64,000 bases of DNA from Isoetes taiwanensis (taxonomy: Eukaryota; Streptophyta; Lycopodiopsida; Isoetales; Isoetaceae). The stretch spans positions 5,098,284 to 5,162,283 of the forward strand of contig JAJEKV010000019.1 in the NCBI GenBank assembly GCA_021234155.1, written 5' to 3'. A program made the translations under genes and the position numbers. Below, in pieces: positions 5,887 through 36,319 of the stretch. The notes beneath the pieces are model-generated. The model did no database searches. It saw only the letters and a list, made by a program, of their open reading frames with translations, and had not been told where the DNA came from. Numbering within the stretch: position 1 is the first letter of the stretch; each line of letters opens with the position of its first letter.

Positions 5887-5891
5887 TGGAT

Positions 5892-9340: not shown

Positions 9341-9499
9341 AGCACTTTCTATTTTCAATTTGAGCAATGCTTTAGCACATTCAATCAATTAATATTTGAT
9401 TTCGATATTTTTGATCTTGTAAAAGCTCATGCCTCAAGGGATTTTCCAGAGTTTTTGTGCTTTGGCTATTACAAGCTGATCGTTACAAAAGTAGATGTT

Positions 9500-10893: not shown

Positions 10894-11259
10894 TCAGAAT
10901 TCCATGGGCATGGGAATACTCTCACCATTATCTGAACATGTCAATCTACAACTATGAGGTAATGCTTCATTATCATCCATCGATTCAATTTGTCCCAGGC
11001 ACTTTAACTTCTCATTATCTTTAACTTTGACATGTTTAAACAAAGCTGGACATTTCCCAAAATACAGGTCAAATACCATGGTTTTGTAATCCTGAATCAC
11101 CCTTTGCAACACTTGGTATGTTGTCTTTCCATGAGGTACAAATATCTTGGATGAGCAGAATAGAGCCGCTCCTTCTCTGCTACATGGATCCAAAACAACC
11201 AAAATCATGAATTTGAGATTAGCCCACATGCTTTTCACGTCCTTCAAAAATTGGAACAT
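10894..11259 (-). other. Unrecognised 121-codon open stretch, possible exon
   Basis: The frame reads with ordinary composition (SKIFVPHGKTTYQVLQRV, MVFDLYFGKCPALFKHVKV). It is longer than most chance frames in this AT-rich region. I recognise no domain. A second unexplained frame lies upstream in gene order at 12688-12506 (MYLLIAVGKDSVNQYDIKF) and a third at about 13174-13007, all on the minus strand. They could be exons of one decayed or real multi-exon gene, but I could not connect them by phase. Confidence 0.25.
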
Positions 11260-12505
11260 TTATATGGAAAGCTAATTCCTTTAGATTACGATCGTCGCAT
11301 CTTATATCAGTTTTCCCAATAATTTGTTTTCAGTTATCTGCTCAACATGAGAACAATCAATTCCATGAGGATCTAAGAATGTAGTCTTTTAATAGATTCT
11401 AAAGGCTTCTAGGCTAGGTCAGACTTAAGTTTCCAGAGGGGATTGCAGATTTATTCTATATTGACCCAATGAGGTGGCACAAAAGCTATCTTTCCATCTC
11501 TACACTAATAAACAAAGAACAGGGACACACCTGAGCACGCTGCTCGAGCTTCAAAGGGCATGAGCAACAAAATTTACAGAAAAAGTATTACTTCCTAAGT
11601 CTCGGGGCTAAATAGATATAGTACCCGTTACATAAGAGTTCCACCATTGCTTCTTGATCATTTGATTGCATTAGCTTCCTTCCAAATGCTGCATAGAATT
11701 GGTACCACGTGCACACAAAAAAGCTATTTTCAAGCTTCTGTTTCTATATCGCAATCGAATGAAATAGAATGAAAATAAAGCTCCTATAGTCATTTAGCCA
11801 GAGGGAATCAAAGTATTAGAAGTCCTGGACCCTACCTTTGCCATAACATCGACAGAAACAATGATATTTCAAGCAGCCTATGCTTCTTTTTGCAGTGGAA
11901 AGCATTAACTTTGTCCAACAAACCAACTGATTGCTTAATCACATGTCCAGCCACCTCTGGCAGAAATGGATGGAGGAAACCTGAGCTCTAGTTTAGTTGG
12001 GCTCAAACAGTCGCCCATTGCCTGTCTCTATAAAATGAAATTAAAATTTGTTACCTCTTATGGAGTACTAATTGCGCATGCACAAGTTAAAAAAGTATTG
12101 AATCTAACACAAAATACTAAACTGGGACATTAAACTTAGATCAATTCAAAAGCAAGAAACGGGAAGTTTGCAAGAGCTTACATTCATGATATGACACAAT
12201 TGGATCAGTTGCTAGAATCTGTGTTCTGTTGCCTCAAATGTATCAGGACTTTTGTGCTAGAAATAAGCCTCAAATGTTTTCAGTCTCACAGCTACAAACA
12301 TAGCTGCAAACGTGAAAATGGTTAGAGAAATGAATGATGAAGCCATAGACTCGATGACAAAAATTGAAAAAGCACTTTGTTCCATGTCCTGCTACCTTTG
12401 AAGCTTAGACAATAGATATAGTAGTACTTTTGCTAGTTCTATGGGCATGACAATCTGCAATCCCTTCTTCTTACATCAGGTGTCCACGGCATACACACGA
12501 AATAG

Positions 12506-12688
12506 CTAGTGTCTTAGAAACGCTTCTTTAGAATGTAGGGATTTAAAACATGGCGTGCATATGTTGCATAGCTCAATCATTTTGTGGCACTCCACCAAAA
12601 ATTTTATGTCGTATTGATTAACACTGTCCTTGCCTACTGCAATCAGTAGATACATAAAACGTGCATCATCCAAATGTATTGTGTCCAC
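12506..12688 (-). other. Unrecognised short open stretch, possible exon
   Basis: Sixty codons on the minus strand read DDARFMYLLIAVGKDSVNQY, then ECHKMIELCNICTPCFKSLH. It has a protein-like composition but no domain I know. It lies between two other unexplained minus-strand frames. Confidence 0.2.
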
Positions 12689-13006
12689 TCAAGTGGCCCG
12701 CAGAGTCTTTAGTTATCTCTATGCTTCCTTTACTCAATATGGAGTCTCCTATAATAGTAGGTTTGAAGAAGCATCAAATGAACTGAAACAGAAGCTGATT
12801 TCTTGAGAATATGCATAGGTGATCAGAAGAAAGAGTAGAAGACATAAGGGTTTTCTCAATTTGATCATGAACATATGGTTAGACATGGCTGTGTTCTTCA
12901 TCCTGATACAAGACAGAAGAAACATAAGGATTTTGAGACCTGAACTTTGAAGTAAGAGAACCCTATTGCAGATCTGGATATGATCGGATGCAAGCATGCC
13001 TGACCT

Positions 13007-13174
13007 CACCGATTGATCATTCATTTGCCTGATACCTTGTTCAAGTCTCACGCGCTGTTTCAGAAGCGTTGGCTCTATACCAAGCTCCCAGCTCGGACTA
13101 AAAACATTGAATTTGAATTGCAAATTCTTACAAAACCCTCCAACTGCGCCCATCGCCTCATCTCCTCCGTGCAC
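13007..13174 (-). other. Possible first coding exon of an unrecognised gene
   Basis: The minus strand reads a polar, protein-like sequence (MGAVGGFCKNLQFKFNVFSP, ELGIEPTLLKQRVRLEQGIR) and reaches a good splice donor (CAATCG|GTGAGG) at about 13007. An ATG for the MGAV start is near 13153. The frame is open further up but has no clear earlier ATG. No domain recognised. Confidence 0.3.
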
Positions 13175-13199
13175 ATTGATTGGCCTTAACAGATACGGG

Positions 13200-13980
13200 T
13201 AAGATGGGAATTTTAGAAGGTTATGTAATAATTTCCCTTGGCTGTTACTGAAAATTAAGGAGATCCAACATGAGATAAATTTAAATGACTGGAATGGCAG
13301 GTGTACAAGCTAAAATTGCAGGAATTATTCCGGGGTTATACAAGCATGCCAATAAGGAGCAATTGTTAACCAGTCTGAATGAAAGCTTCTTTATGGAACA
13401 ATATCTCAAAGGAGATAAAAAGGGAACTATTAAGCAACACTAGCAGGCATCATCTAAAAACATGGGGTTAGCCTCCTTAATTTCCTGTTACAATTTTTCA
13501 ATCCGAGTTTTTATTTGCCGGCAAAAAAGTTGTGGGGTTTCTGTTCAAAATCCCACAGCCACAGTAAGCAGTTGAATAAGCGACGGCTCATCAGCTGATT
13601 CCGCTACGTGTTACCTATCCCGCAAGAGCTGAGGCCCAATTTTGCATCCTTCTGATCCATTTTTAGGTAAGCGCTTATAGCCGTGATCTTTTCACATGAA
13701 AAAATCATAATCTGTTCCCATTTCGGTTTGGAAAATCAGTTCATCTGATATTTTTTCAGCGAACAAGATTACATGCCACGTGAACAAATGGCTAATTAAA
13801 TTGATCAGCTCTGATGTATCCCGCTGGGTTCTGCTTTGAAAAAAGCGTGCATTTGAACCCTACTTCATTAGCTCTTATATGCAAAATCCAGTGGAGCATG
13901 CAAAATCCAGTGGCCAATTTACCGTCCATGCTGGATTTTAGGCGGAATCAATCCCGCCAAAAAAACAGCCATTTTCGGAA
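13200..13980. other. Intergenic stretch, nothing recognised
   Basis: AT-rich DNA with a small direct duplication of ATGCAAAATCCAGTGG near 13880-13915. No coding or terminal-repeat structure that I can support. Confidence 0.4.
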
Positions 13981-13985
13981 CACTG

Positions 13986-14053
13986 CCGCCTGCGATTTTG
14001 GATGCCTGCGATTTTGGATGCCCCCTGCGATTTTGGATGCGATTTTGGATGCC
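13986..14053. repeat. Four direct copies of GCGATTTTGGATGC
   Basis: The 14-base word GCGATTTTGGATGC occurs four times in about 65 bases with spacers of 0 to 5 bases. It sits about 500 bases beyond the 3' end of the hAT transposase and could be a subterminal repeat of that element. That link is unproven. Confidence 0.8.
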
Positions 14054-14554
14054 GGATCAGCGTTGGGGAAACCTTTTTCCTCTGAGCGGAAAATTTCCTG
14101 TAGTTTTCTCACTGAATCGGAAATTATAATTTTGAATCGGATCGTTCCTGCGAAAGAAATTCACAACCGGATCCTACTTCTGAAGGCAAAAAAATTAAAG
14201 TATGCATTCAACAATGAATTCATTGCCACTATTTACCAAGTACTCAAATAGTTATAAATTAACATAATATAACATCAAAACCAAATCAAAATGCTACATT
14301 AAGGATATGCCATGTAAATAATAACAGAAATAGACTTCAAATATCATATCACATTATAATGCTATGGAACTTACACAAAATCATAATATGAAGTTCAAAA
14401 ACGTTTGCCTTATCATAACATTGTAGCTACATCATATAGATAATAGCATAAATAAAATCCGCTTATCATATCATAATATTTTAGAGTTATAAGAACTTAA
14501 AAGCATAAGCACAATGTCAAGTTAAGAAAAAAAGTTTGTCTCATCATAATAAGT

Positions 14555-16773
14555 TCACGATAAGTCTTCACCTACCTCTTCAATAAGCATGTTGTCTTCT
14601 TGAAATCTCCTCTCCCGCCTCTCAAGTGGGCATCCCGTAAAGATTTGTCGATATTGTGCACTATTCCGCCACAAATTAATACTTTCACCAAAGTCAAAAT
14701 CCCCTAACTTGGGGCCCTCTATTGAGATCCGAAGCAATGCATCAAGGCCATCTCTTTGTAGTCTATTTCTAAACTTGTTTTTGATGCATTTCATGCGGCT
14801 AAAACCCCTTTCACAAGTAGCCGTACTTGAACATTGAATAAGGCCAATTTCTGCAATTTTTAGTAGCTCGGGAAACTTTTGTTTCCAAGTCTCATTGCAA
14901 CGGATCATACCCCATATGTCCAAGAAGCCTCTACCAAGCCATTCCGTAGTAGCTTGCCTTTTATAGTTCCCAAACTCAACAATCAACGAAGCTTTATCAA
15001 CAATTGGAACAAACTCTTTTGAATTCACCCTTTTTCCATTCCCATAGAACTCACCTAGTGCCCTTATCTCCTCCAACCCTATACTTTTACGTGGTGCACC
15101 AATGGGCATGTTACATGGAGACAACACCTTCATAGATGAGAGAGTTACTTGATCTTGGAGTCTCTCTTTCAAGCAATCAATCAAGGCATTAGCAAATGCC
15201 TTTTGGAATAGAATAGCCGCATCAAGATCTTCTCCATCAATACTTCTATCCATTTCAATACTCCTATACATATTCCCTTTCACGGATGACCTTAAGGTAG
15301 CAAGGTATCCTTTTCATTACCATAATCAGGGATGATGGGATAATTCTTACTATCTCTTTGGAAGCCATTCAAATCTATTCCCGCATGTAAAAAGTCCTCC
15401 TCAATTTCCATAACTTTGCCTCTACATAAACTTGCTATCGTGGTAATGTCAACATACTCTTTTTGAAATTCAAGACTCAAGTCACTTGTGATCTTAAGGA
15501 TATCACCAAGAAAATGAAGAATGTAAACAATTTTAAAACTTTTCAAGCTCAAGTAAATTGTCTTACCATCACTTTGAACTCGTAGGGTCTCCATCAATGG
15601 TTCATAAACATCGCAAAGTCTTGCAATGGCGCCATGTCTACTCAACCAACGTGTCTTCGCAATACCTAAGACACGCAAGTAAGAACAATCCAATGCCTCT
15701 TGCATTTTCTCGAAAACACCTTGGCGAATGGTGCTCCTATGAAAAAAGCCGGCCACTTGATTCACGATCTCATCAATAAACTTGCACGTGGTCTTTATTG
15801 CGGGCTTCTTACAAACTTCTTGAACACATAAATTTGTTCGATGCGCACAACAATGAAGGGTAGTCATATACGGATTAAGTGCTTTCAATCGTGTTGCTAC
15901 TCCCATATTTGTGCCCACCATGACGGATGCACCATCACTTCCAAATCCCATCATTTTCTTCACATCCAAGTCCCATTCTTCCAATATTTCCAATATGCGT
16001 TCGGTAATTGATTTTGCATCACTATCTTTCACAACAACAATGCCTAGGTAGCAAGTACATACCCGCCTTCCTTCCATGAAAGTGGCATAAAGAATCATAT
16101 TTTTTGTCACACTTATGTCGGTCGATTCATCAACCATTATTCCAAACCATGGGCTCTTTTTCAAGCGTGCATATATCTCAATTTCAATGGCTCTACTCAT
16201 ATGAAAAATGAAGCTTGCACATGCCTTATTATCATTATACATGGTAGGAAGATCTTCCACTCCACATTCCCTCAAGAGCTCCAAAAGGTTTGCAAGTTTC
16301 ATGAAAGCCATGTCCTCTTTTGCTATAAAATAAGCGCATTTAAATATCTTCTCTATTGATGCCTCCACATTAGCTTTCCTCTTTTGCGTGCATCGTTCGA
16401 GCCCATCCTTCTCTTGGTCCATAAGTAGAATAGCTTCTCTATGTGCTTGGCTTTTTGCGTGATCTTCAAGGGCGGAAGTCTTGAAATTTTTGGCACCCGT
16501 TGTGCCAAATAGGCTCTTGCAATGCCGATCTTTCTTACAAATAGTACACCAAAGAAGGCCTTGTTCAAGATCTTCTTCTAACCAACGAAACTTTTCCAAC
16601 CAATCATCTTGGAATTTTCTTTTTGCTTGGTTTACTCTTGACATCTCTCCTGCTAGCTCTTTTGTATGCTCTACAAATTCATTATCGAAAGCTTTACTTA
16701 CGCTTGAAGAACTTGCTAATTCCGGTCTTACAAATCCGGGCATCGCAAAGAAGCTTGCTTGTTTTTTTGCCAT
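14555..16773 (-). pseudogene. hAT-superfamily transposase (ZNF862-like), one frameshift
   Basis: The first frame (16773-15292) starts at MAKKQASFF. It has a TTF/BED-type zinc finger (LLWCTICKKDRHCKSLFG, then H-x5-H in EDHAKSQAHRE) and the RNase-H-like catalytic fold: WFGIMVDESTDIS with the first Asp, KKMMGFGSDGASVMVG, TLHCCAHRTNLCVQEVC and RWLSRHGAIARL. The second frame (15283-14555) carries the hAT dimerisation end: STATCERGFSRMKCIKNKFR, then ALLRISIEGP. The two frames are offset by one shift near 15285; otherwise both read about 735 codons with no other break, so inactivation is recent. Such hATs cut and paste DNA with 8-bp target duplications. I could not locate its terminal repeats. Confidence 0.9.
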
Positions 16774-16859
16774 ATTTGATAATAAGTATAACGAGCATAA
16801 AAGCAAATTAAACCTGTAATATCAAGAAAAATAAATTAGAAGCAATCAAGTGCATTACA

Positions 16860-17350
16860 ATACATTACAAAACCAATTCTTTATGATAAGTTTGTAAAAG
16901 AAAAAAATATTTCAAGTAAGAAAGCAAACAATAAAATACAATGACAAGATTAAATTATTGGATGCTTTGGACTCAACAAATGTCCTCTGTTATTAGCTTT
17001 TAAATTGCATGGAAACGGAATTTCCTAGATTCTATAAAGTAACCTAGGCCTCATGCTATATCTTCTAACGTGCATATATGCTTTCACTAACTAGAACATT
17101 TCCTTATCTGTTTTCTTCCAATCCAAAACCAACAATAGGCCCTACTGATGACTCACACCAAAAAGGGTTCACTAATCTATCTTGCAGAAAACAGGTGGCA
17201 TCATAATTCTGGATGAATCAAACTTTAAGCTAAAAGACGAATCACAAAAGAGGGATAAAAAAAATACAGAGGGAGAGATCGGATTACCTTTGCTTTGTTG
17301 AGACAGTAATAGAACGATTGATTCTTACTGCATTGTAGTCGATTCTTATT
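16860..17350. other. 5' flank of the hAT gene, nothing recognised
   Basis: AT-rich sequence upstream (minus sense) of the transposase. It probably holds the untranslated leader and 5' end of the element, but no terminal inverted repeat was identified. Confidence 0.35.
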
Positions 17351-17351
17351 T

Positions 17352-17567
17352 CACAGTTATACAGATCGATTTGGAGCATTCATAACACTGCTTGGTTGAG
17401 AAACCGTAAGGCCCATTCAGTTTATATTGCCCACAGTTTTATACAGATCGATTTGGAGCATTCATAACACTGCTTGGTTGAGAAACCGTAAGTCCCATTC
17501 AGTTTATATTGCCCACAGTTTAACACTGCTTTGTTAAGCCCATTCAGTTTATATTGCCCACAGTTCC
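17352..17567. repeat. Tandem repeat, about 80-bp unit, 2.6 copies
   Basis: Units begin at about 17352, 17432 and 17514. Each contains CAGATCGATTTGGAGCATTC (absent from the third, shortened copy), AACACTGCTTGGTTGAG and CCCATTCAGTTTATATTGCC. The third copy has lost about 28 internal bases. Confidence 0.85.
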
Positions 17568-17915
17568 AATTCAGTAAAAACTCTCTGTATACAAGGCGGG
17601 AGGCCTCATGAATCACATCGATTTAGAACTTTAGAAGAAAACAGAGAAATGGAGCAGAGATGGAACCTAGTTGCCAGTGCCACATAGTGCTTGATCGACC
17701 TCTTGAATCTGTTATTCTGATTGTTGAACGGATCCCATGTCGTAGAAGAGAGCAAGCCGATATTACAGTACAGAGATAAAAAGGATTTTCGATTTTGTTT
17801 CCCTCCTTTCTTTCTGTTTCTTTGCATTAAATTTTTGCAGCGGGTTAAAGTTTTGCAGCGATGGGATGGTGGGCGCTTCATTTTGTTACAACCAGACAAA
17901 TTTGTTGCTTGCTAC

Positions 17916-21962: not shown

Positions 21963-22431
21963 TGGAAACCCTTCCTATTTTCCCCCATTTGTGGAAACCC
22001 TTCCTATTTTCCCATGGGTTTGGAAAATAGGAAGGATTTCCATTTGAATTAAAATTTAAATTCTTGAGTGTCGTGCATATTTATGAGCATGCACCATTAA
22101 TGGCGGCGTGCGTGTTGGGCGGCGTGCGCCTTGAAAAAACAAAAAAAAAAAAAAAAAAAAATGGAAACCCTTCCTATTTTCCGAGGAAACCCTTCCGATT
22201 TTCAAATTGGAAACCCTTCCAATTTTCCATTAAAATCAGGAAGGGTTTCCATGGAAACCCTTCCTATTTTCCAGGTTTGGAAAATAGGAAGGGTTTCCAT
22301 GGAAAATAGGAAGGGTTTCCATGGAAACCCTTCCTGGTTTTAATGAAAGCCGGAAGGGTTTCCATGGAAACCCTTCCTATTTTCCATGGAAAATTGGAAG
22401 GGTTTCCATGGAAAATAGGAAGGGTTTCCAT
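21963..22431. repeat. Self-complementary word array, GGAAACCCTTCC in both orientations
   Basis: Between 22163 and 22431 the 12-base word GGAAACCCTTCC occurs six times forward and its complement GGAAGGGTTTCC six times, often joined through CCATGG or TATTTTCC so that neighbouring copies form perfect palindromes. Two more forward copies (21963, 21993) and one imperfect reverse copy (22031) precede an A-rich run. The single strand would fold into a series of hairpins. No coding frame is credible here. Confidence 0.9.
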
Positions 22432-24260: not shown

Positions 24261-24588
24261 GCCGAAATGTGGTGCCAATATTTCCTTCGAAATTATCTAG
24301 TTAGAGCCTGGCAAGAAGCATTAAACATGTTTGCAATACCTGAATCTGAAAAGAAGAAGAAACCTGAGCTTACTTAGGGTATGGTCACATGAACAGGTCT
24401 ACATGAACTAACCATCATTCATTTAAATTGGATTTATGTCAGGATTTTGGACCATTTTGGCACTGCAACTTTTTCCGGGGTTAGTAAATTTGCATCGAGA
24501 ATGAGAACTTTTTTTTATAACATCACAACATGATTGCATTAAAAATTAAAAATATTTCACATATGCATGTCGAGTTACATATTGCCAA

Positions 24589-27435
24589 TTACTTCTCAGA
24601 AGTGACCCCTAGAGATATCATAGCTTTCTTCCTCACTTCCACAGGTATTGTAACCCTAGCAGTCTTGCCTGGGATGACCTTTGGGGTCCATGAAAACAAA
24701 ATAGTATCTAACTCAACCCAATCATCCCCTTCAATAGGGTTTCTCTTCCATCTCTTTGTCCAACAGTCTCTATACCTTTCTTCATCTGCCACTGCATTTA
24801 ACTGGTGCACTGGACACCACCACTCCACACGAACTTTGTTCACATTGCGGTCACCTACTTCTTTGCAAACCTCTGAGATGGTGTAACCCATCCACACAGG
24901 GTATATCTCTTTGCGCTCTGGTACTATAAGTGCAAATTGATGGCAAAGCAAGTCATCTTTGGGATCATAATCCTCCAGCCCGAGATATTTAGGCCTTCCT
25001 TTCCTAGGACCAACATAGTGTTTTTCAGCAGCTGGAGGAGCCATGGACTTGCGAATACTACTAACCACATCATCAGCTTCCTCATGTGTTATCACGTCTC
25101 TCCACCTGTCTTAGGTAGCCATCCATCTTTGAGTTCATCAGAGGATGTGTCTACTTGTCCCAATAATCCATGTACCTGTGTCCAATAATCTATCAATGCA
25201 AGGTTGGTATTATCGGGGTTATTTTTCCAATACTTGATGTATTCAGAAATGCCGTCCAATGTGCTTTGCAATGAATCCACCTCTAGAAAAGGCTTAAGAG
25301 CTTTTGGTTGACCCCTTGGAATCTTAGGTTTACCATTTTCATCTTCGTGCCATATAGGTACTCCCTCATCTGGCCTCCATTTATCATCTGAAGGTCTCAT
25401 CTTCCATTGCATGATTGGCTTATTTCCCATGACCCAGAAAGTGTACTGAAGAGGTCTAGATTGACCTTCCATATCAAGAGCATAACTTTCGATAAAGTTC
25501 TTCCAATCAGGCACCTCTTGTATGATCAACCCTATAGGAGAAGGTGAAATGCATTCACTAAGAACTTCCATTAGTCTAGGAAGATTGGTCACAGTTTGAG
25601 ATTTCAATCACAAGACTATACTTCCCAAACAATGCATCCACATCCTCATGAGTATGTCCGGGCATTAAGAACCCTAAATTCACTCTTTTCAAAGACACCC
25701 ACGGCTGTTAAATAAGATAGGAATGAGAACATATAATTTTTTATTCTCGGTCCAAAGACAATTGTCAAGTTGGAGGAGGAACCTTGGTGGTAGATCTCGA
25801 GGTTGGGGACGTGAACTTGAGGCTCCAACATGTTCAAAAGCACCTGACTTCCTAAACCTTGCCTTAGTAAACTTCTCTAAATTATTAGGCTTTCTATCCA
25901 ACAATGCCTTTGAAGAGTGGTTGGCTACCACCTCCAGGGTTGTGGAGGTCACCAGAATAACCACTCTCATAGTTCCTCAAGCACTTCATCACACTTCCAA
26001 TATGAAAATCAGGACCATCACTCCATAATTGCAAACTAAAATGGCCATAATAAATTGGCACCGAGCCATGCACTATTGCACCTGTCAGAGAGACTTGCAA
26101 AGGATAAGCTCTATTGATTTGCTTGGGTATGTAACTATAATGTGGCAAACAAGTCTTGATTTGATCCATCTTGTCATGTATAATACAAACATAGTTATTG
26201 GGTTCCAAACATGATAATGTTCTCCACATCCAATAAGTACATGATAGTTGGTCTGTCATGTGATCTTTCATTTGCTCCCTTATCTTAGCCCTTTGGCTTG
26301 GTTGCTTGGTCTTATCAAGAATCTCTTTCAACTTAGCACACAAGTTGCACTTTGCAAAGTTGTTCAAGTGTCTATAGTGACATGCTTGAAGTGCTTGCTC
26401 CATAGTCTTCATCAATTTGGGTTGAGATATTGCAGGTACCTGTAGTTCTCGAAGCAAAGCATTCACTTCCTCCAATATGCTCTTCTGGGTACAATGGGAT
26501 GGCAATCTCTTCTCGACAACTATTTTTCCCTGTTGATCTTTCCTACTTTTATGTGGCATATTCTCAGCATTGAATTCAACATATTTTTCAAAACCTCCCT
26601 AGCAGCCAGGATCCTAGAAGTTGGCCTCAACATGCCATTATTTCCATGTAATGCAATTTTACTCCCCTTTGCATGACTTGCTTGCCAATTTTGCCAAGAT
26701 GAAATTGGAATGCCATGAATATGTATCCATGCAACTTTACATATCCATGTCCCTAGCAGTGGGTATTTTTTTTTTCTTTGGAAATTTTTTATCTTGAAGT
26801 GCAAGCTCATGAATGGAGTACATGTAAGTCCTCCTCTCATCACAAGTATACTCTTTGAAGGTGGCTCTTGCTTCCACCAATTCATCAATTTCAAACTTCG
26901 AACACAATTAGCCCAACAACATTCCATTCCCCTTACCTTAGTCGTGAGCTTCACGTGAACAATCACTACTTGACTTGGACCTCTTGCTAGGATAATGTTT
27001 CACCACCGAAAGTGTGCCCTCTTCTCTGAAAATGTGGTCCTGGCAGCTATTGGAGGTGCATTAAGAAAATCAGTGTCATCCACAACCTCTGGCTTTGGTA
27101 AAAGGAATTCTTCTATAAACTCAATGCAGGCTATAGGCCATGGCATGATGCATGGAACCTCCAATTGTTTAATACAAGCAGTGCAATCCTGGTGATTTGA
27201 TCCTTTTTCCTTCCATTTTTCCTCTAAAACTTGTTATGGCCACACCCACTTTATCCTCTCCTAACCTTTCATCATTGACAGCCTGGATAGGATCAGCTAG
27301 TATGATAGTTCCTTCACCTACTAGCTCCTTATTGCATTGGTGCTTCACTTTCACCTTCTTATTCTTCCAATCCAACCTACTGTAGAGGACAATTTGCTTA
27401 GTACTCTCAGCCTCAACACCCTTTGGGAGGTCCAC
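24589..27435 (-). pseudogene. Decayed transposon-like gene with a DUF7869-like core
   Basis: Minus-strand frames follow one another in protein order. 27435-27169 is LVGEGTIILADPIQAVNDER, resembling domains linked to plant transposases. 26966-26520 contains TWICKVAWIHIHGIPISSWQ, SKIALHGNNGMLRP and SRILAAREVLKNML. 26559-25894 contains ACHYRHLNNFAKCNLCAKLK, WRTLSCLEPNNYVCIIHDKM and DQIKTCLPHYS, then PLQVSLTGAIVHG. 25607-24589 is a C-terminal region (YTFWVMGNKP, PDEGVPIWHEDENGK, CHQFALIVPERKEIYPVWMG). The HDKMDQIKTCLPH and LTG-IVHG blocks are what I associate with DUF7869, a repetitive family of presumed transposon origin in many eukaryotes. Several frame changes make it a pseudogene. No terminal repeats found. 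Confidence 0.55.
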
Positions 27436-27690
27436 AGCATTGACCTACAAGAACAATGTTTACAATGGGGTAACAATGTGATAAGAACATGTGGTAACAA
27501 TGTTGAAACATGTTGGGGGGATAGGCATTACATTTTTACCCTCCACACGCTTCACCTATATAAAGTGAAATGTCTTAATATTAGTTCGAAAAAAGGACAA
27601 AGTAATTTTGAGAACCGATTAAAGGGAACTTTAAGAAATACCAAAAAAACCATTAAATGGACAAATATATGTTGTAAGTGCAGCCAAAAA

Positions 27691-27915
27691 TAGGTTGTAA
27701 GTATAGCTCAGGTGTAGGTAATTATTGCAAAATTAATGGTAACATAGGGTGTATGCTAGTAGTACTAATGAGGTAAGTATAGGTCGTGAATCTAGATGGG
27801 CGAAAGTTGGTTGTAAGTATAGCTAGGGTCTAGGTAATTATACAAAAGTAATGAAAACATAGGTTTTAAGTATAGCTGACATGTGGGTAATTCTATAGAG
27901 AATTATGATAACCTA
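27691..27915. repeat. Diverged repeat, about 55-bp unit, three copies
   Basis: Copies start near 27692 (GGTTGTAAGTATAGCTCAGG), 27809 (GGTTGTAAGTATAGCTAGGG) and 27864 (GTTTTAAGTATAGCTGACA). Each continues into GGTAATT and a AACxTAGG block. Confidence 0.7.
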
Positions 27916-27992
27916 GGGCGTAATTAATTCAATAGAAGTAATATGATATAAATCTTTGTATGATGTGATGGAATCATAATTACAACCGCGCC

Positions 27993-27997
27993 TATAA
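27993..27997 (+). promoter_or_regulatory. Likely TATA box of the acidic-tail gene
   Basis: CCTATAAGAA sits about 97 bases before the ATG at 28090, a normal TATA-to-start distance with a leader of about 65 bases. Confidence 0.5.
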
Positions 27998-28089
27998 GAA
28001 ACCTTGCATGCATGAAACCCTCCATTCTTTCAACCGCCAATCCTTTCTTCCTTCTAGCGCCAATCCTTTCTTCCTTTCTTCCTTCTACC

Positions 28090-28560
28090 ATGGTGAGCCA
28101 TGCTGCCCGGCCTCGTCCAGCTCCATCTCGCCGGACTCGCCTCCGAGAGGCGAAGAGGCAGATAAAAAAATTGATAAAGAAATCCATTCCCTCCTCCCGC
28201 AGATGCCGCTGTGGCTGCTCTCCGCACCACAGTCCGGATAATTGCGAGGAGTTATTTCTTCAGGGCAAGCTTCGCCCGGGAAAAGATTATCTGAGCACCA
28301 GCACCAGCAGCCCCGAGTCCCCCCATACTCCCCTTGATTCAGATGAGGAGATGGAGAACGAGATTGAGAAAGAAGAAGAAATGGAGGAAGCAGATGAAGA
28401 ATGGCGGGAAGAATTAGAAGAAGAAAAAAAGCAGCTGATTATGGATGCCCGCTCCTCCTCTGAAGACGAAGATGCTGTCGAAGACATCCTGATGAGGATG
28501 GCAGATGAAAGCTCAGAGGAAGAAGAGGAGGAGGAAGAAAAGGAGGAGGTAGAGGGCTGA
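28090..28560 (+). CDS. Small protein with basic N-terminus and strongly acidic C-terminus, unknown function
   Basis: The ATG at 28090 has a strong context (ACCATGG), preceded by a pyrimidine-rich leader. An earlier in-frame ATG at 28012 would add 26 hydrophobic residues and is less likely given the TATA at 27993. The 156-residue product starts MVSHAARPRPAPSRRTRL with a basic segment (REAKRQIKKLIKKS), has a short cysteine cluster (CRCGC), a Ser/Pro-rich stretch (STSSPESPHTPLDSDEE) and ends in long Glu/Asp runs with heptad character. Basic-then-acidic layouts occur in nuclear and chromatin-associated proteins, but I recognise no family. The gene appears complete and intronless, with AATAAA at 28716. 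Confidence 0.55.
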   Translation: MVSHAARPRPAPSRRTRLREAKRQIKKLIKKSIPSSRRCRCGCSPHHSPDNCEELFLQGKLRPGKDYLSTSTSSPESPHTPLDSDEEMENEIEKEEEMEEADEEWREELEEEKKQLIMDARSSSEDEDAVEDILMRMADESSEEEEEEEEKEEVEG

Positions 28561-28715
28561 ATTTTTTTTTTGTTTTTGTTATTTAGTTTTTGGTTCAGAA
28601 GAGCGAGCTGGGCATCTCCAAAAAAGGCCTCAAATGAGGATTATGAATGGAGCTAGGCATCTCCTTAAACTGCCTAGAACTTCTGTAATTTTGTAACACA
28701 GAGCTGGGCAACTCT

Positions 28716-28721
28716 AATAAA
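28716..28721 (+). terminator. Polyadenylation signal of the acidic-tail gene
   Basis: AATAAA lies 156 bases after the stop codon at 28560, a typical 3' UTR length. Confidence 0.5.
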
Positions 28722-28967
28722 AGGCCTTATGTAAAATTTTTCAATGGCAATACAAGGATTTACTGACTGCAATATGTTTCTTTAGTTTCTACTCTAACTT
28801 GAAAGCAGAACTGTAATTTCTGCAGAAGCTGTTTTGAATTCTGACAACTCTAATGAAAGGAATAACAGTACTGCTTTAAAGTACAATATAGGATACACGT
28901 ATGGCATTTAAATTACAAGTGATTGGTATTAGCTCATGGCGTGAAATCACTAATTTGTTTTTTCAAT

Positions 28968-29035
28968 GAATTCGCGCCTGGCGCCAGATTCAATGAACAA
29001 CATACCGGGCGCGTATTCAACTGAAGTTCCTCCTG
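28968..29035. repeat. Isolated copies of the GCGCCTGG / GCGTATTC word
   Basis: GAATTCGCGCCTGGCGCCAG, then CCGGGCGCGTATTCAAC, resemble the words that build the intronic arrays at 32195-32640 and 34706-34768. Confidence 0.55.
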
Positions 29036-29059
29036 TGCCAGCATAGGCTACAAGCATAA

Positions 29060-29870
29060 GCTTATTCAATGAGTAGTGTCGTGCTCTGGAGGGGCTTGAA
29101 ATGGAGAATGCTAAGCTGATAATTAGAGTTGCAGACCTCGAAGCCATTTTGGGTAATATCCCAATAGCTGCACCATCTTATTTGCCAGAATCTTGTATGC
29201 CAGTTTATCTTTTTTCAACAGCATTTGAGACTATTGTGCCAAAGATTTGAGACTACCGAGGAACAAACAACACGAGATGAATAACAGATAGATGAATAAC
29301 ACACAGATATAATTAAAACAATGTAAAGAATGCAGGTTTTTTAAAGAATATCCCATCCATGTAAATAATACAAGTGTTTTTAAATTCCTCGAATGCTCGT
29401 CTGCAGCAGCCTTATAGTTTTGTAATATTGAATGAATGGTCGGCATGCAAGCGTTTTAATTTCATACATATGATGTAATCAGCTTGTGCATTTTAGTATG
29501 AGCACTCAATCTTCCTCTATGTCTTCCAAGAAAATGAAACTCACCTTCTTTTAATTCATCGGCCATGCAACAAAGGTTCCGGATGCTTTCACCCATTGTG
29601 TCTCCATCGGGATGCCTTCCGGGTAATGCTTCGCCGTTGAAATGGCAACCGGGTTACTAGAATCTTCACATGATCATTTCCAAGAGGAACTCCATGGCAG
29701 ATTGCTTCGGATCGACCGATTCTATCTTGCAATTTCCCACCCTCCTCTTCAAATTCTTCACAAGATGTAGCATTCTTCTCCAACGTTGTTCAATGTCGCA
29801 AGATCATGGGATTAATTTGGAGCTTGGGTTCTGGAAGAGTAGATGAACTTACATGAAGGCGCTCGACATC
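29060..29870. other. Stretch without a recognised gene
   Basis: Short frames only. A minor ORF (minus, 29783-29589) shows no domain. Confidence 0.4.
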
Positions 29871-29879
29871 GCTCAGGCG

Positions 29880-29945
29880 CCGGCTTCTTCCCAGTTCTTC
29901 CGAAGTTCTTTCGAAGTTCTTCCCCGTTCTTCCAAGTTCTTTCGA
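29880..29945. repeat. Short repeats of AAGTTCTTCC
   Basis: Variants of TTCTTCCRAAGTTCTTTCG occur about five times in 65 bases (CAGTTCTTCCGAAGTTCTTT, CGAAGTTCTTCC, CGTTCTTCC, AAGTTCTTTCG). Confidence 0.7.
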
Positions 29946-30125
29946 GCTCGAATGACAAGAAAGGTGGCGGCAAGATTAGGTGGTAGTTTCAAATTATCCG
30001 TTAATTGTACTGCTTTTCTAGCCGCTGAGTGAAATCTAATTATGGGATTTGACAATACGGCGGTCGTAGAGCCATTTATCGCCGACGATCAGCGTCCCGC
30101 CCATTAGGCCCAATCGTAAGATTGC

Positions 30126-30290
30126 TAACCGCCGATTAAAAGTCGACCCGCGAAATTTAAATATCCGCTTCCCTTCTATCGGACCGTCGATTAAAAGTCG
30201 ATCCGCTGAAATTTTAATAACCGCCGCTTCTATCGGACCGTTGATCAAAAAGTCGATCCGAATGAAACCGCCGATCGAAGTCGACCTAAT
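30126..30290. repeat. Promoter-proximal repeat with TCGATTAAAAGTCGA palindromes
   Basis: Three diverged copies contain (CTATCGGACC)GTCGATTAAAAGTCGATCCG and an AACCGCCG block. They lie directly upstream of the TATA box at 30307, so they may act as upstream elements of the ParB/HAD gene. Confidence 0.7.
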
Positions 30291-30306
30291 CGCCTTTATG
30301 GAAATC

Positions 30307-30313
30307 TATATAA
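30307..30313 (+). promoter_or_regulatory. Likely TATA box of the ParB/HAD gene
   Basis: TATATAA is followed about 30-190 bases later by a purine-rich leader with repeats of AAGAACTCCGAG. A candidate donor (CTCAAG|GTCGAT, about 30496) and the acceptor CGTTTGCAG (ending 30949) suggest an intron in the leader. Confidence 0.5.
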
Positions 30314-32125
30314 GTTTTTGAATTCCATTTCTTGCTTTTTGATTGTCGACTTGCTCAGGAGACGGCTCAAGAACTCCGAGGGCTCAAGAACTCAAGAACT
30401 CCGAGGCGCTCAAGCTCATCGCGAAGATGCCGCCCAAAGGTCGTCTTTGCTCCAAACTCAGCCGGGGGCAGAGAAGATGCTCAAGGTCGATTATTATCAT
30501 CACTCACGTGTGTTATTCATTCATTGTTCATTGCTCTGATTAGTGTGCAGTGTATGCTCTGTATTTACTGTATTTGCTCAGATCTTTCATTATTTGCTCA
30601 GATCTATTATTTACATACTTGTTGACTTAAATTTCTATAGCTGATCACACTCCTGTCTATCATTTCTTTAGCTGCTCATTTCTGCATATGCATAATAAAT
30701 GTCCTTCCTGTGTTAAATTGTCCTGCTCGTGATTAACTGTTATGTCTATGATTTGTCCACCTGTGTGTAAAGTAGTATGACCGTGTTTAGTTGGCCTGCC
30801 TTCGAGTGTCTGTTTGGCATGCTGTAATTGGCACGCCTTATGAGTGCATGTCTGTAATTGGGGACTGTATGCCATTCTGTACTTTAGCCTGGCCGGAATT
30901 GATGACCACTCGAAATCGCGCTAAGCGTGTATTGCACCCTCGTTTGCAGGGAAGAAGAGACAAAACCGAATGGTAGCTCCTACACCTCCTCCTAAGAAAG
31001 CAAGAGGCTCGGAAGATACTTCAGGGAGCTCCAGCTCACAGAAGAAAAGAAAGCCCAATGAGGACGCAGTATCCTATGCATTGTCGATGGATGATAGCGG
31101 ATCCATTATCAGGGCAGACACAGATCCTCCATGCCCCGAGGAGAAGATGGATGACAGTGCGGAGTGGTATGTTGATGTAGGCAAAACAAATGGTAAGGTG
31201 GATCTTGTGTTACACTCCAGAAAGAAAGAGACTGATCTTATGAAGAAACAAGATATTCTTATCACTTGTGAGGAGCAGGATGACATATGTTGTCAACTCC
31301 TAGTGGAGGTTGTGAAGAACCACAAGAAAGATCTCGTCAGATTTACACATGCCAGGGCAACTGGTTTCAAAGATGGTCTGATGAAGAAGGACGCGAGTGC
31401 TGAGTCATGTTTCAAGTACGGATGGCCTCAAAATACTGTCCTCACTCCAGTTTCTATTAGTGAAGGGGTGTCTGCAGTGAGGAGAGCTTTGCGAGGACCT
31501 TCTCCAAGTTACTACCTGGAGGAGATGAAGCATCAAAATGATATCAGGGATGTACCTAAGATTCTTTGGACTTAGGAAAGGACATCCCCACTGCAACAGT
31601 TGATGGCATTTTGGCAGAAAATGACTCCGAAAAGAAATTGTAGCTGGAGGCAATGAGTAGGCTAGTCAAGTATGCAGACAACTACCCACTTGGCCAATCT
31701 TTTACACATCCCATCCATGTTGACCGCCTGGTGAGATCACATAAGTCAAGTCTTGTTAGCAGGAGGTATGACCCTGAGCATGCAAGAGAAATATTGAGGG
31801 CGATGGTGAGGAATCCAGGCCAAGTACCTATGCCAGCTGACGTGCTTCCTTGGGATAAGAAAAAGGATGCTCCACTCCAGTGGACAACACTAGAAGAGCT
31901 AACGGTGGAGAACCCTAATGTATGCTTCCTTATTATTGACGGACAGCATTCTATTGAGGCACAACGATCCCTATCCAACCAGGCTAAGCAAACCGGACAA
32001 ACAATGTATCTGCTACATTACAACCACAGGAGATGTCGGTTTCTGAGCCCCCATACCCCTGCAGAGGACCTGGCAGAGATTAGTGCAACATTGAACGAAA
32101 TGGGCGAAGTCTTTCTTTATAAAAG

Positions 32126-32741
32126 GTTAATATATTTGGTGGAATTGAAGCAAGTAGCAATAACACTAGTAGACTAGGTCCAGCGTTTGTCAAGGCGTGC
32201 CAATTCGCGCGTGGCGTGTATTCATGCTGCCAATTCGCGCCTGGCGTGTATTCGTCCGCGAATTGTCAGCATGAATACACGCCACGCGCGAATTGCCAAT
32301 GTACTGCATTTTCATCAGGCGGACGAATACACGCCAGGCGCGAATGCAGTGCGTTGCGTTGCCAATTCGCGCGTGGCGTGTATTCATGCTGCCAATTCGC
32401 GGACGAATATGGCGTGTATTCGTCCGCGAATTGGCAAAGATGAATACCGCGCCACGCAGCAATTGCCAACGCACCGGCCCGATCAAAATGCAATACATTG
32501 GCAATTCGCGCGTGGCGTGTATTCATGCTGACAATTCGCGGACGAATACACGCCATATTCGTCCGCGAATTGGCAGGATGAATTTGCGCCACGCGCGAAT
32601 TGGCAGCATGAATTCACGCCAGGCACGAATTGGCACGGCTGCCTTTGACGTTTCCTGATTATCCTTTTTGCTTGATCTAAAAAGCGGTTACTTTTTGTAT
32701 GCCTTCTCATATTGGCTGACATGCTTTCCTTACACGTGCAG
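32126..32741 (+). other. Intron of the ParB/HAD gene carrying a word array
   Basis: Donor AAAAG|GTTAAT at 32126 and acceptor with a pyrimidine tract (CCTTACACGTGCAG) at 32741. The exon ends with two bases of a codon and the next exon supplies the third, giving S-PYVE. The intron is almost filled by the GCG-type palindromic array. Confidence 0.65.
32195..32640. repeat. Palindromic word array, AATTCGCGCSTGGCGTGTATTC in both orientations
   Basis: The word AATTCGCGC(G/C)TGGCGTG, continuing TATTC, occurs about four times forward (about 32203, 32233, 32364, 32503) and about four times inverted (about 32271, 32325, 32441, 32578). Between them are linkers ATGCTG/CAGCAT and a second palindromic word CGCGGACGAATA / TATTCGTCCGCG. 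The whole 445 bp is built from these modules and would form a multi-branched foldback. The GC-rich, CpG-rich composition contrasts with the AT-rich surroundings. Confidence 0.9.
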
Positions 32742-34703
32742 CCCATACGTGGAATAACTCCGTCATGTCCGCCAGCAATGGATAGAATATGGAAGACCCC
32801 TGCAAACAAAACAGGGAGGAACGAAGTCTGAGGAGTTTAAGGCATTGGAAAAGACCTTGGCTCAGACTATCATCCAAGATAAGAAACCAAGAGCCAAAAA
32901 AATAGGAAACAAAACTGGGGAGGAAGCAGGCGAGACGTCTGAAGCAGCTTCCAGAGGTCCTACAGATGCCTACAAGATCGTCTTCGCTAAGGACGAAGTC
33001 TGGGCGAAGTGGAACGAGTTCTGGGATGCTTATGCACAGAAACAGCTACCAGACCCAATGGGACGAGTGCCTCCTCAAGATACTTCAATATTTGATCTCA
33101 AGACTACCGAGATGAGAAAAGTACAGGGCCTTCAAGATGATGAAATCATTTGATTGTTAAATCAATGCATAAACAAAGAAGTTCTGTACAAGAAGGCTTC
33201 TTCAGTTAAGGACAAAATGTCCTTCATTGATTATTGCACTCATATAAAGAACATGCGAGTTATGAAGGTAGCAGTTGGTGAAGAACTTCAGAAGCTATCT
33301 GGTGATGTAACATTGTCTGAAGTCGGCCTGCTAGACAAGTATGGTGTGTCTGCTGATGACATCAAGAAATACGTCTTTTGGTCGAAGGAATTTCTGCAAA
33401 ACAGGAAATCAAAGAACCAACAGCACACCGCAAAGCTACCAGATAAGGTGATGGCTGAGCTGAGAAGAAAGGTTGCCGTCCTAAAAGATGTTGGTGGTGA
33501 CTTACCTGCACTTCAATACCTGGTCTCTACTGGCTATAAAGATCTCCTACCCGATACAACAATAGGCCCTCGTAATATTTCTCTGTTTGTATTGGATAGC
33601 AGGACTGCAAAAGGAGAGAAGGGGATGACTCAACAGGACTACTTAGTAGCTGCATAGGCTTAACAACTCAGAAGCTCTTTACTATTATCATCATATGCCC
33701 CCCAGGAGAGCCTCATATGCATGCTTTGGTGGCTTCATACGACTTGGAATGCCTAAAGGTCGTTAGGGAAGGTTCTCTTCTCTTTGAGACAAAGGATACT
33801 GATATGAGGATGCAGTTTAAAAGCGCTTGTATAATCTTCATAATGATATCCCTTGTGCCGGATGACGACTATGAGGTAGCTAAGAACAAAGGGGCATCGG
33901 ATAAAGGTGCATGGCAGTGTTTTCTTTTGGATGAACCCAACTTGAAAAATGTCTTCTACAAAGCAGATGATGAGGATGAAGCAAATGAATGCCAGGAATT
34001 TAATGTTCCTGACCTCTACCGGAAAGACATCACTCTGGAATTGCTGACAAAAGAAAAGGGGCCCTTGAATAAACATGGGTTTGCAATCAATCTGGCAAGC
34101 TATCTTGTTGAGGCATTTGCACCACTTGATACCACTTGTCGTGGAATTGCATGTTGGAGGGTATATTGGTAGAGAGGCCCTGAAGACATCAAGAAGATGT
34201 TTAAGTTTCGTCAACGATGACCAGTCCAGGGATTTCCTTGAAGTGTTTTTCGAAAAGGTACTAGCCACGGCTGATTGGAGTCCTGTCAAAGATAAAAACC
34301 CGTGGGCTTTGGTACCTTACAAAGGGCAGAAGCAGAATACTAGTTCACAAAAGCCTCCGAGTGCAAATCCAGAATGTTCAAAAAGCAATGCAACCCCTGA
34401 GGAGAAGGCCGAAATGCTAGAGCGGGAACGTGAGACCATGGAGAAAAAATTGGACTTCATGCTTGATAACATTCCAACTGGTAATGTCCAGCTTGGGGGT
34501 ACGACTGCGGCAGTTGCTGATAGCAGCCAGGATGATCATGCAAGCTCAGATGCAACCACTGAGGTTAGGAATCAAACCCCTGTGGTAGCTTTCATAGAAG
34601 AGAACGTGTCCGAACTTAATGGTGGCATTCATGCTTCTGACAGTAAGCATCCGGGGAGTGAAGTAGACGCTGCGGATGCTGCGGATGACGGCGACGAAGA
34701 AAG

Positions 34704-34812
34704 GTAATTCACGCCAGGCGCGATATGTAGCTTATTAATGAAGGATAAAACGCGCTTGGCGTGTATTGCAGAACACTTTTGCATGGCTAACTCTTTGTTT
34801 TCCATGGTTCAG
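34704..34812 (+). other. Short intron built around an inverted pair of the GCG word
   Basis: The intron (109 bases) starts GTAATTCACGCCAGGCGCGA and ends CCATGGTTCAG. The words CACGCCAGGCGCG (34710-34722) and CGCGCTTGGCGTG (34751-34763) pair at 12 of 13 positions around a 28-base loop. Splicing joins AG|G (Arg) in phase to PPPACDKIIVFDLNG. Confidence 0.75.
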
Positions 34813-35452
34813 GCCTCCACCTGCTTGTGACAAAATCATTGTCTTCGATCTGAATGGTGTCCTGTGTAAAACATTTCCTAAGAAGCTTATTAACAGGGAT
34901 GACTTCAAGCAAGTCCCTCTAGAATCGAATACTAAGTGGATCTATCCTCGTCCACACTTAGAAGATATGATGAATGAGGCGTTCAGATTGTTTCGAGTTG
35001 CCATCTGGTCCTCAATGGAACGCAGAAATGTTGATGAAGTATTTAGGGTGTTACCAGGCATGAATCGAGATTTTGTGACGATTTGGGACCAAAGTAAGTG
35101 TATAAAGTTTCCACATCCAAGATATCCGGATGGCAAACCGGTCTTCGTGAAACATCTTGGTACTATGATGGATCAGCTTGGCATTCAAAAGAAAGAGGAC
35201 ATCATAATAGTAGATGATGATGCTCTTAAGTGCTTTTATAATCAAGGTCAGGCCCTAAATCCACCAACTTATACTCCACAAGATTACTCAACAGATGAGT
35301 TTCTAGTACTATTCATGTCCATCATGAGTGGCTTGGCTTCTGGTAAAACAGTATCAGATGTTGTCAAAACGCATCCAGAACTAGATCGGACTAAGGAGAT
35401 GGATCCCTATCTTGAGAGTTATTTGACAAAGAAAGGACTAGTCCCTCCATGA
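34813..35452 (+). CDS. FCP1/NIF-type HAD-like domain, C-terminal exon of the fusion gene
   Basis: This 213-codon exon is open to the stop at 35452 and is the best preserved part of the gene. It starts right after the acceptor with the HAD core IIVFDLNGVLC. In active FCP1/SCP phosphatases the loop is DxDxT/V; here the second Asp is Asn, so the general acid/base is missing and phosphatase activity is doubtful. Further FCP1-like blocks are YPRPHLEDMMNEAFRLFRVA, IWSSMERRNVDEVF and FVKHLGTMMDQLG, then IIIVDDDALKCFYNQGQALN. Plant relatives of this DLNGxL type are mostly uncharacterised. Whether it is ever expressed apart from the upstream domains is unknown. Confidence 0.7.
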
Positions 35453-35459
35453 TGTAATC

Positions 35460-36319
35460 TTCATATCAAGTGAATACAATGTAAAAAGTGTTCTGTGTAT
35501 ATTGATGTGTTGTTATCTACAAATGCTATTGAAACACCACATTCTTCTTACTAAAACAAGAAAATGTTAAACCACCCACTACTACAATGCAAAAATTTGC
35601 AACAATGCAAAACAGCATGTCACACAACAAAACACTATATTGAGAAAAGGGTATGCAAAAGTGGCGTGCTTTTGGAACAGACATAAATCCAATTTAAATG
35701 AATGATGGTTAACTACTCCCTGTCGACATGAAGGCTTCAATTTCGAGAGGGTCATATGAAGATTAAAAGGAACCCGTGGGCTTCCCGTTTCTTTCTTCCC
35801 TGCTGATTTTGGATCATTGCCAATTGTCATGAGTTTTGCCACGTGCTCAGCTCTGAGGGATTCATGTTGACAATTCTTTCAACCGAGAAGAGAGACGGCT
35901 GAACGGATCGATGTCAACTTGGATCTCTTCATGTCAAAAATCAGCATGAGACCCTTTCAATTTCAGTTTTTGACATCTAAGGAGAGATGTCGACCTGTTC
36001 ATGTGACCCGACCCTTATGTTGTGTGAGCACTGCACACCACTCCAAGTGTAATTCACATCCCTGTTGCATGAAGCATGTCCAAAAATCAAATATGCATTT
36101 CAAGGTATAATACGTTAAGGTAAGTTAGTCTTCATTCTTGTTTGGTGTCCAATGGGATGTCGCCATGTGGCGATCATACTAATCAAGAATGGCAAATAGG
36201 TAGAGCATTCTTGACGAACCTGAGACAACCGGTCTGCTTACCATCTGTCGAAGCTCAACTGCATGAAAACTCTTTCACCCTGCTTACCTTGACATCGTGG
36301 AGCAGCAACAATTCGCAGA
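35460..36319. other. Stretch without a recognised gene
   Basis: 3' flank of the fusion gene; only short frames on both strands. Confidence 0.4.

Follow-up and report, generated by a model that had tools for sequence, protein, structure and literature searches.

A large two-gene transposon of Isoetes taiwanensis with a putative ParB-like, methyltransferase-like and FCP1-like accessory gene

Accessory genes that pair a ParB-like domain with a DNA methyltransferase are already known from transposons. The 21.5-kb transposon Sola1-1_Ec32 of Ectocarpus encodes, opposite its transposase, a protein of 1,104 amino acids with ParB-like and N4/N6 methyltransferase domains; the consulted sections of the paper describing it cite green and red algal cases, suggest that these proteins act on the transposon encoding them by binding and modifying it, and do not name the target sites (PMC12477816). 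ParB-methyltransferase fusions have also been described in prokaryotic and phage proteins, according to the consulted part of a survey whose main text holds no word beginning with "transpos" (PMC12704722). Here, we analyze a stretch of 64,000 nucleotides from Isoetes taiwanensis (assembly GCA_021234155.1, contig JAJEKV010000019.1, positions 5,098,284 to 5,162,283), hereafter called the window, which contains a mobile, large two-gene transposon with terminal inverted repeats (TIRs) at positions 24410-35710. A previous sequence-only reading had singled out positions 30970-35452 as a domesticated plant gene and a candidate for an undescribed system. That unit is too short, the gene being the accessory gene of the transposon, and "undescribed" is too strong a word in view of the Sola1 case. 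We consider it slightly better than even (about 0.55) that the element combines a DUF7869 transposase with a divergent accessory gene in which a ParB-like domain would serve self-recognition and a methyltransferase and an FCP1-like domain would form a rewired effector, all parts taken jointly.

The transposon and its ends are as follows.

24410..35710, no strand: whole transposon, 11,301 bp (about 11.3 kb), delimited by its terminal repeats and by homology to other copies that stops at the right side
24410..24440, plus strand: left TIR AACCATCATTCATTTAAATTGGATTTATGTC, 31 nt, with 32/32 identity to the right end when one further outer base is counted
35680..35710, minus strand: right TIR, matching the left end
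24406..24409, no strand: target-site duplication AACT, left copy
35711..35714, no strand: target-site duplication AACT, right copy

When the window is compared with three other copies by BLAST, homology ceases at about 35711, where the right end matches the left end in inverted orientation, and the two ends have a perfect 32-nt repeat in common (24409-24440). A 4-bp target duplication flanks 15 of the 16 elements checked, including the one in the window, with L036/L037 as the exception. The genome (1,658,258,908 bases in 1,110 contigs) contains a 29-nt terminal pattern, allowing up to three mismatches, at 1,367 places in forward and 1,368 in reverse orientation (none for the control), that is, about 1,370 termini per orientation, so that, counted by their ends, over a thousand copies are present. 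Among 100 places listed, 25 plus-then-minus pairs of TIRs lay within 40 kb of each other, with a median length of 11,768 bp and a range of 4.4-34 kb. The right end, ...CCAATTTAA(T/A)TGRATGATGGTT, is present in ten of the 12 loci searched (L047-L058) and was not seen in the fetched stretches of L048 and L057. The exons of the accessory gene are similarly abundant, with at least 152 genomic matches to the last, FCP1-like exon (150 scored of 6,888 first-look candidates) and at least 150 to the ParB-like exon (150 scored of 3,893). The element is mobile because it has TIRs, 4-bp duplications and a high copy number; it shows both the multi-copy inverted termini and the fixed-length duplication of a cut-and-paste TIR transposon.

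These results bear on the proposal that the accessory gene belongs to the plant host itself and was acquired laterally from bacteria, gaining introns and an FCP1 domain. Such an origin would agree with the introns, the plant genome and the prokaryote-type domains, but it is very improbable given the TIRs, the 4-bp duplications in differing flanks, the thousands of terminal repeats and the many copies with stops and frameshifts. For the window copy, a single host gene is ruled out by copy number, TIRs and duplications. A phage or viral source of the accessory gene is unsupported, as viral contigs scanned with the profile of exon 1 gave 70 pattern matches of which none was confirmed, and a tblastn search of phages with the exon of the haloacid dehalogenase (HAD)-like domain gave none.

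The accessory gene is encoded on the plus strand, from an ATG at 30970 to a stop codon at 35450-35452.

30970..32125, plus strand: exon 1, N-terminal region and ParB/DGQH-like domain (31644-32123), assigned from weak DndB, DGQHR and ParB matches
32126..32741, plus strand: intron 1 (GT...AG), with eight palindrome-like sites (32202-32631)
32742..34703, plus strand: exon 2, putative degenerate class-beta methyltransferase-like region and acidic tail, assigned from weak hhalign matches to a sister methyltransferase
34704..34812, plus strand: intron 2 (GT...AG, phase kept), with two palindrome-like sites (34706, 34747)
34813..35452, plus strand: exon 3, FCP1/NIF-like HAD domain with DLNG in place of DxDx(T/V) (PF03031, E 9.4e-16)

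All four motif strings given in the sequence-only reading are present on the plus strand and in the order given, namely FLIIDGQHSIEA at about 31926, ICPPG at about 33693, VVELHVGGYIGREAL at about 34138 and IIVFDLNGVLC at about 34835, and intron 34704-34812 joins the HAD exon in phase, as proposed there. The window copy of the element is dead. Exon 1 contains a frameshift and an in-frame TAG (about 31570-31643), and exon 2 is interrupted by a TGA at 33151 and changes frame near 33600-33660 and again near 34070-34170. Since this copy is broken by stops and frameshifts, its relatives are required for the analysis. Their open frames were read in class 1 (the window, L051 and L052), class 2 (L014, L047-L049, L053 and the right part of L012), class 3 (L050) and class 4 (L054-L058).

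The gene consists of an exon 1 of about 400 amino acids, with the N-terminal region and the DGQH domain, an exon 2 with the methyltransferase-like region and acidic tail, an intron, and the FCP1-like exon. The ParB/DGQH-like, methyltransferase-like and FCP1-like exons are common to classes 1, 2 and 4, in the same order, and within class 4 the FCP1-like exon was seen in L057 (first part lost) and L058 only. Among the matches listed, at least 15 of the first 25 to the ParB exon are followed on the same strand by an FCP1 exon at a distance of 2.8-3.3 kb, another two have one at 12.5-13.5 kb, and eight have none. The domain order and one-gene architecture of the sequence-only reading thus hold up, and the three exons very probably form one gene. 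That the FCP1 exon is instead a separate neighboring gene of the element, and the fusion only apparent, is improbable. Each exon is a long open frame whose joining is predicted from genomic sequence, and no FCP1 exon is recognizable in L050 of class 3, but intron 2 follows the acidic stretch with GT...AG borders and the phase kept in the window class, and order and strand are the same in classes 1, 2 and 4 and in locus L082, described below.

All three exons are constrained between classes. The proportion of synonymous differences (pS) is 0.78-0.95 (0.68 for class 3 versus 4), meaning that synonymous sites are saturated and that most between-class ratios could not be computed. The proportion of nonsynonymous differences (pN) is 0.22-0.30 in the FCP1 exon, 0.27-0.36 in exon 1 (0.11 for class 3 versus 4) and 0.24-0.39 in the methyltransferase-like exon. 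For L050 and L056, the ratio of nonsynonymous to synonymous rates (dN/dS) is 0.07, and a transposase piece gave a ratio of 0.39 (dS 0.89). Low pN against saturated pS indicates that the domains, although dead-looking, were retained by selection during the divergence of the families. Within classes, the ratios range from 0.15 to 1.33, which fits copies decaying after their insertion.

The transposase gene lies on the opposite strand and is divergent from the accessory gene, both in the window and in class 2.

24589..27444, minus strand: remnant of a transposase gene (DUF7869) in at least five pieces of open reading frame (ORF), identified from PF25273 matches below the cut-off and from comparison with class 2

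The minus-strand pieces in the window match PF25273 at E 1.5e-4 and 3.6e-3, both under the cut-off, and the central part of the corresponding gene in the class-2 copy matches the same model (DUF7869) at E 6.5e-39. This copy was obtained by joining L046 and L014; its TIRs are located at 3048-17802 of the joined stretch, with the duplication GTTA. The best window matches of four class-2 transposase pieces are 43-68% identical. The genome scan with PF25273 gave 9,907 first-look candidates, of which 150 were scored. We take DUF7869 to be a putative DDE-type catalytic domain (LDNxxGQNKN...GHTHxxxD). Between the divergent genes there is also a Glu/Asp-rich ORF on the plus strand (27964-28560 in the window, 6636-7052 in the joined class-2 stretch), which may give the element a third protein, small and acidic; a simple text search did not find the window's version in L009 or L010.

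The last exon is the most clearly assigned part of the accessory gene. It matches PF03031 (NIF/FCP1) at E 9.4e-16 with 58.3 bits (cut-off 21.8), the sole significant Pfam match among the window exons; no ParB or methyltransferase model was listed for the pieces from the window itself, even at E values of up to 5. As in the FCP1/SCP (NIF) phosphatases, PF03031 is covered over most of its length, and the first Asp, WSS and VDDD persist in the window, L012, L014 and L058. Unlike in these enzymes, the DxD is replaced by DxN, as DLNG in the window, L012 and L058 and as DQNG in L014, in agreement with the earlier observation that the second Asp is an Asn. The catalytic DxDx(T/V) signature of the FCP1/NIF HAD family is absent from the element copies compared. 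DxN is also found in other, apparently multi-copy HAD groups of the same genome. Fourteen further PF03031 places include five with DxD (L067-L070 and L079) and eight with DxN (L071-L078), while L080 ends short there, and the DxN places together with L062/L063 form several groups. In L062, L063 and L081 (C1033, C907 and C1051), a RING-like C/H region and a common N-terminal region are joined, as judged by eye, to an FCP1-like DxN domain; these genes are apparently multi-copy, and the FCP1-DxN module recurs across several repeat families.

The putative ParB-like domain in exon 1, which contains FLIIDGQHSIEA, was assigned from several libraries. Exon 1 of class 2 matches PF14072 (DndB) weakly, at E 0.0011 and 18.5 bits (cut-off 29.1), and four of ten exon-1 members match DndB in Pfam (best E 0.0027). 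Similarly weak matches were obtained for the window to TIGR03187 (DGQHR; E 0.082, 12.6 bits, cut-off 58.85) and for L014 to the PHROG ParB-like model 1033 (E 0.097). The evidence from Pfam DndB, NCBIfam DGQHR and PHROG ParB-like models is weak but concordant. The DGQH motif and its local context are also found in DndB/DGQHR and ParB-CTPase fold proteins, from which exon 1 differs in that its matches fall under every curated cut-off; CTP binding and clamp formation are features of ParB-parS systems.

The methyltransferase-like region in exon 2 can be compared with the genes of sister elements in the same genome. A scan with PF01555 gave 1,444 first-look candidates, of which 150 were scored, and those listed exceed the cut-off. 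Twenty of 21 neighboring methyltransferase and DUF7869 genes are divergent, with a median distance of 5.9 kb; since these pairs were chosen by eye in a way that favors such pairs, the numbers are a description and not a test. In the sister loci L059-L061, GGNHSFKARRQLYKE lies in a region of the divergent gene that precedes a methyltransferase with A-D-(L/I)-P-Y-G and LDAFSGSGTT. Their ParB-like region matches PHROG ParB-like models at E 0.007 in L060 (model 1033) and 0.018 in L059. In L059, PF01555 recognizes the motif-I exon at E 2.1e-17, and the motif-I profile retrieves M.MboIIA, CcrM and RsrI from PDB. The sister transposases are homologous to that of class 2 (31-35% identity, E down to 6e-25). 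No FCP1-like frame of at least 120 amino acids was seen in L059-L061, and their left end and target duplication were looked for and not found, so that the right end alone is defined. Where the window family has its divergent accessory gene, the sister elements carry a ParB-like region and a motif-complete N6/N4 methyltransferase. Just past the right end of the sister element in L060 (205-2148, minus strand), there is an ORF that by eye resembles a gypsy-type retrotransposon polyprotein.

In the class-beta N6/N4 methyltransferases (PF01555; CcrM, MboIIA, RsrI), motif IV precedes motif I, and this order is kept by the putative motifs of exon 2. The window has a putative motif-IV strand, LFVLDSR, at about 33583 and a putative motif I, ELHVGGYIGREAL, at about 34144. 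Aligned by hhalign with the sister methyltransferase, LFVLDSRG...TIVTICPS falls on LVVADLPYGFKLKDSRYDD...WRLVVFHSS (E 0.024, probability 2%), with a score of 24.7 against 11.7-19.7 in eight cross or reversed controls. This weak alignment makes LFVLDSRG the motif-IV strand and pairs ICP(P/S) with WRLVVFHSS, a later strand; on this basis we reject ICPPG, which the sequence-only reading had taken for motif IV, in that role. After locus L082 is added to the profile, the best match becomes motif I, with ...CWELHVGGYIGREALKLARKCQSVVSDD on ...VLDAFSGSGTTIACALKKGRNCVAVDID (E 0.0055, probability 6.6%), and L082 alone matches the sister enzyme at the same motif-I place at E 0.085. The motif-IV and motif-I matches are collinear and in class-beta order. 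The window family has LFVLDSRG and ELHVGGYIGREAL where class-beta enzymes have DLPYG and LDAFSGSGTT. Since motif IV lacks DLPYG and motif I lacks the glycine loop, it is unlikely that the methyltransferase of the window family is catalytically active. That this methyltransferase may be dead, as the sequence-only reading suggested, agrees with these weak alignments, which put motif IV at another place.

L082 comes from one of the DxN groups. Its upstream part matches the exon-2 profile at E 2.2e-6 (probability 89%) and is followed by a motif-I-like VVEVNCGGNIAREALLMGREVLVF and then by an FCP1-like exon. Its N-terminal part matched neither exon 1 nor the sister ParB exon in hhalign, and PHROGs gave no ParB or methyltransferase match.

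Several results weigh against the proposed assignments. The ParB-like assignment is built on weak matches, the best of them under its cut-off; none of the ten exon-1 members has a ParB or DGQHR match in NCBIfam, L056 of class 4 has no ParB-like match in PHROGs or PADLOC, the latter giving two weak matches in all, both to one of four proteins, and PDB searches with the exon-1 profile gave nothing beyond chance. The best hhalign match between exon 1 and the sister ParB exon (score 20.4) lies outside the ParB region. The hhalign probabilities of 2% and 6.6% for exon 2 are low, the motif-I match has no reversed control, and single-sequence structure models reached pLDDT values of 38 and 37 and were not used. 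The DLPYG exon of L059 alone has no significant Pfam match, and the fetched stretch of L082 has no identified ParB-like exon, transposase or TIR. A strict palindrome scan of the window element, whose sites are imperfect, passed none, and the joining of the three exons into one mRNA is a prediction from genomic sequence. Palindrome binding, binding to the C-terminal domain (CTD) of RNA polymerase II and an effect on transposition are predicted roles. In addition, Pfam found no methyltransferase in 11 exon-2 members, and PDB searches with exon 2 and with sister exon 1 remained at chance level.

It may be asked whether the accessory protein has an unrelated DNA-binding exon 1 and a non-methyltransferase exon 2, the resemblances being due to chance. 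Exons 1 and 2 are without significant family or PDB match, and the low hhalign probabilities and the failed comparison of exon 1 with the sister ParB exon are what such a protein would give. We nevertheless consider this unlikely, though far from negligible, as the weak matches agree on ParB/DGQH in three libraries, PHROG model 1033 matches both L014 and its sister L060, and the methyltransferase matches are collinear in class-beta order, with a motif-IV score above all eight controls.

A further line of evidence comes from short palindromes within the elements; in the window element, two of them lie outside the introns.

28969..28989, no strand: palindrome-like site between the two divergent genes
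30913..30933, no strand: palindrome-like site immediately before accessory exon 1

Counted at 15 or more of 21 matching positions, the 21-bp word AAATCGCGCCWGGCGCGATTT has 12 sites in the window element versus a mean of 0.1 in 20 two-base-block shuffles, and none in the 24.4 kb of left flank and one in the 28.3 kb of right flank. The class-2 element also has 12 such sites, with none in 4.8 kb of its flanks. Intron 1 contains eight of the sites in the window element and intron 2 contains two, the remaining two being the intergenic site and the one upstream of exon 1; in class 2, intron 1 has six, intron 2 has four, and the other two positions have one each. Perfect copies occur in L050 and L057. 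The core CGCGCCWGGCGCG occurs at 1,639 genomic places (one for the backward control). The sister loci L059 and L061 carry another palindrome, AGTGTATTCCGGAATACACT, in nine and 13 strict copies, and L060 has relaxed copies only. It is located upstream of the accessory gene, with a spacing of about 41 bp in L059, and in L061 also inside the intron that separates the ParB exon from the methyltransferase exon. L082 has a third palindrome, TAACTTCCAACACGTGTTGGAAGTTA, in two perfect and three near-perfect copies. The lineages thus bear different palindromes in their non-coding parts, as expected if the sites are read by a protein of the element itself, for which the transposase and the accessory protein are the candidates.

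In the left flank of the window element (22242-22374), a stretch of 135 bp contains AGGGTTTCCATGGAAACCCT, a perfect palindrome, three times, and the flanks show 10-base words from this palindrome up to 16 times; perhaps these copies belong to another element with its own palindrome array.

One tentative extension of the proposed scheme is a self-recognition resembling ParB-parS, in which the ParB-like protein of each lineage reads its own 20-26-bp palindromes, both co-diverging, with one branch methylating itself and the window branch having exchanged the dead methyltransferase for an FCP1-type phospho-reader. Of these lineages, the window's and the sister one show a ParB-like region, which was not seen in L082, and co-divergence of the palindromes does not separate the transposase from the accessory protein, since both diverge together. 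It is just as conceivable, and we would put it at less than even odds too, that the transposase binds the palindromes, or that they have a structural, hairpin or splicing role within the introns. Their location in introns and between divergent genes would allow a function in promoters or RNA, and CACTA-type elements have arrays of sites for their transposition protein. The sites in the window are, however, internal, the nearest being about 0.9 kb from a TIR, diverged accessory proteins go with different palindromes, and the sites fill the intron after the ParB exon in both L061 and the window.

Under the two-gene scheme with a self-recognizing accessory protein, the ParB-like domain would load onto the palindromes of its element in the way that ParB loads onto parS. 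The sister elements would then methylate their own DNA. In the window family, the methyltransferase would be retained without catalysis as a structural module, and the FCP1-like domain, probably a pseudophosphatase that binds partners in their phosphorylated state, for instance the RNA polymerase II CTD, would take the effector role. Copies marked in this way would stay transcribable or visible to the transposase.

Two of the copies compared contain other sequences. A 2.2-kb unit in L012 (6870-9031), with inverted ends of 40 nt at 92%, was read by eye as containing the right-hand portion of a class-2 element together with an exon-2 fragment and two tRNA-like repeats, and looks like a composite with captured gene fragments. 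The large intron 1 of the class-2 copy in L014 includes a 683-amino-acid ORF (2773-4824) with DUF4283 (PF14111, E 3.6e-8), probably a nested retroelement.

Among known systems, the layout of Sola1-1_Ec32, a large element with an opposite-strand accessory gene encoding a ParB-like domain and then a methyltransferase, is matched by the sister loci L059-L061. An accessory gene opposite the transposase of the same element is found in the window, in class 2, in L059-L061 and in 20 of the 21 hand-picked pairs, and the catalytic methyltransferase motifs are found in L059-L061 and not in the window family. A 4-bp target duplication is a feature of Sola1, and the window family has 4 bp as well; the likeness to Sola1 is one of layout and duplication length. 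The window family differs from Sola1-1_Ec32 in its degenerate methyltransferase, its added FCP1-like domain and its land-plant host, and also in its palindrome arrays, which go unmentioned for Sola1-1_Ec32 in the consulted sections of PMC12477816. As in ParB-parS systems, palindromic sites are present in cis, imperfect in the window's class and known from sequence alone. The phage and bacterial ParB-methyltransferase fusions have the same domain combination as is proposed for the element family. Among open-licence PMC papers, we found neither the FCP1 fusion, nor a land-plant case of a ParB-methyltransferase transposon gene, nor a dead but conserved methyltransferase, nor palindrome arrays of this kind. 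The palindrome arrays offer a concrete, testable candidate target for each lineage, and families with a motif-complete methyltransferase side by side with a family with a dead one and an FCP1 domain show how a marking system may be rewired. If the scheme is true, a eukaryotic transposon would possess a system for recognizing self versus host DNA made of bacterial-type parts. Compared with what has been described, ParB-methyltransferase accessory genes of transposons are already known, while a fusion to FCP1, a land plant as host and lineage-specific palindrome arrays were not found in the literature searched.

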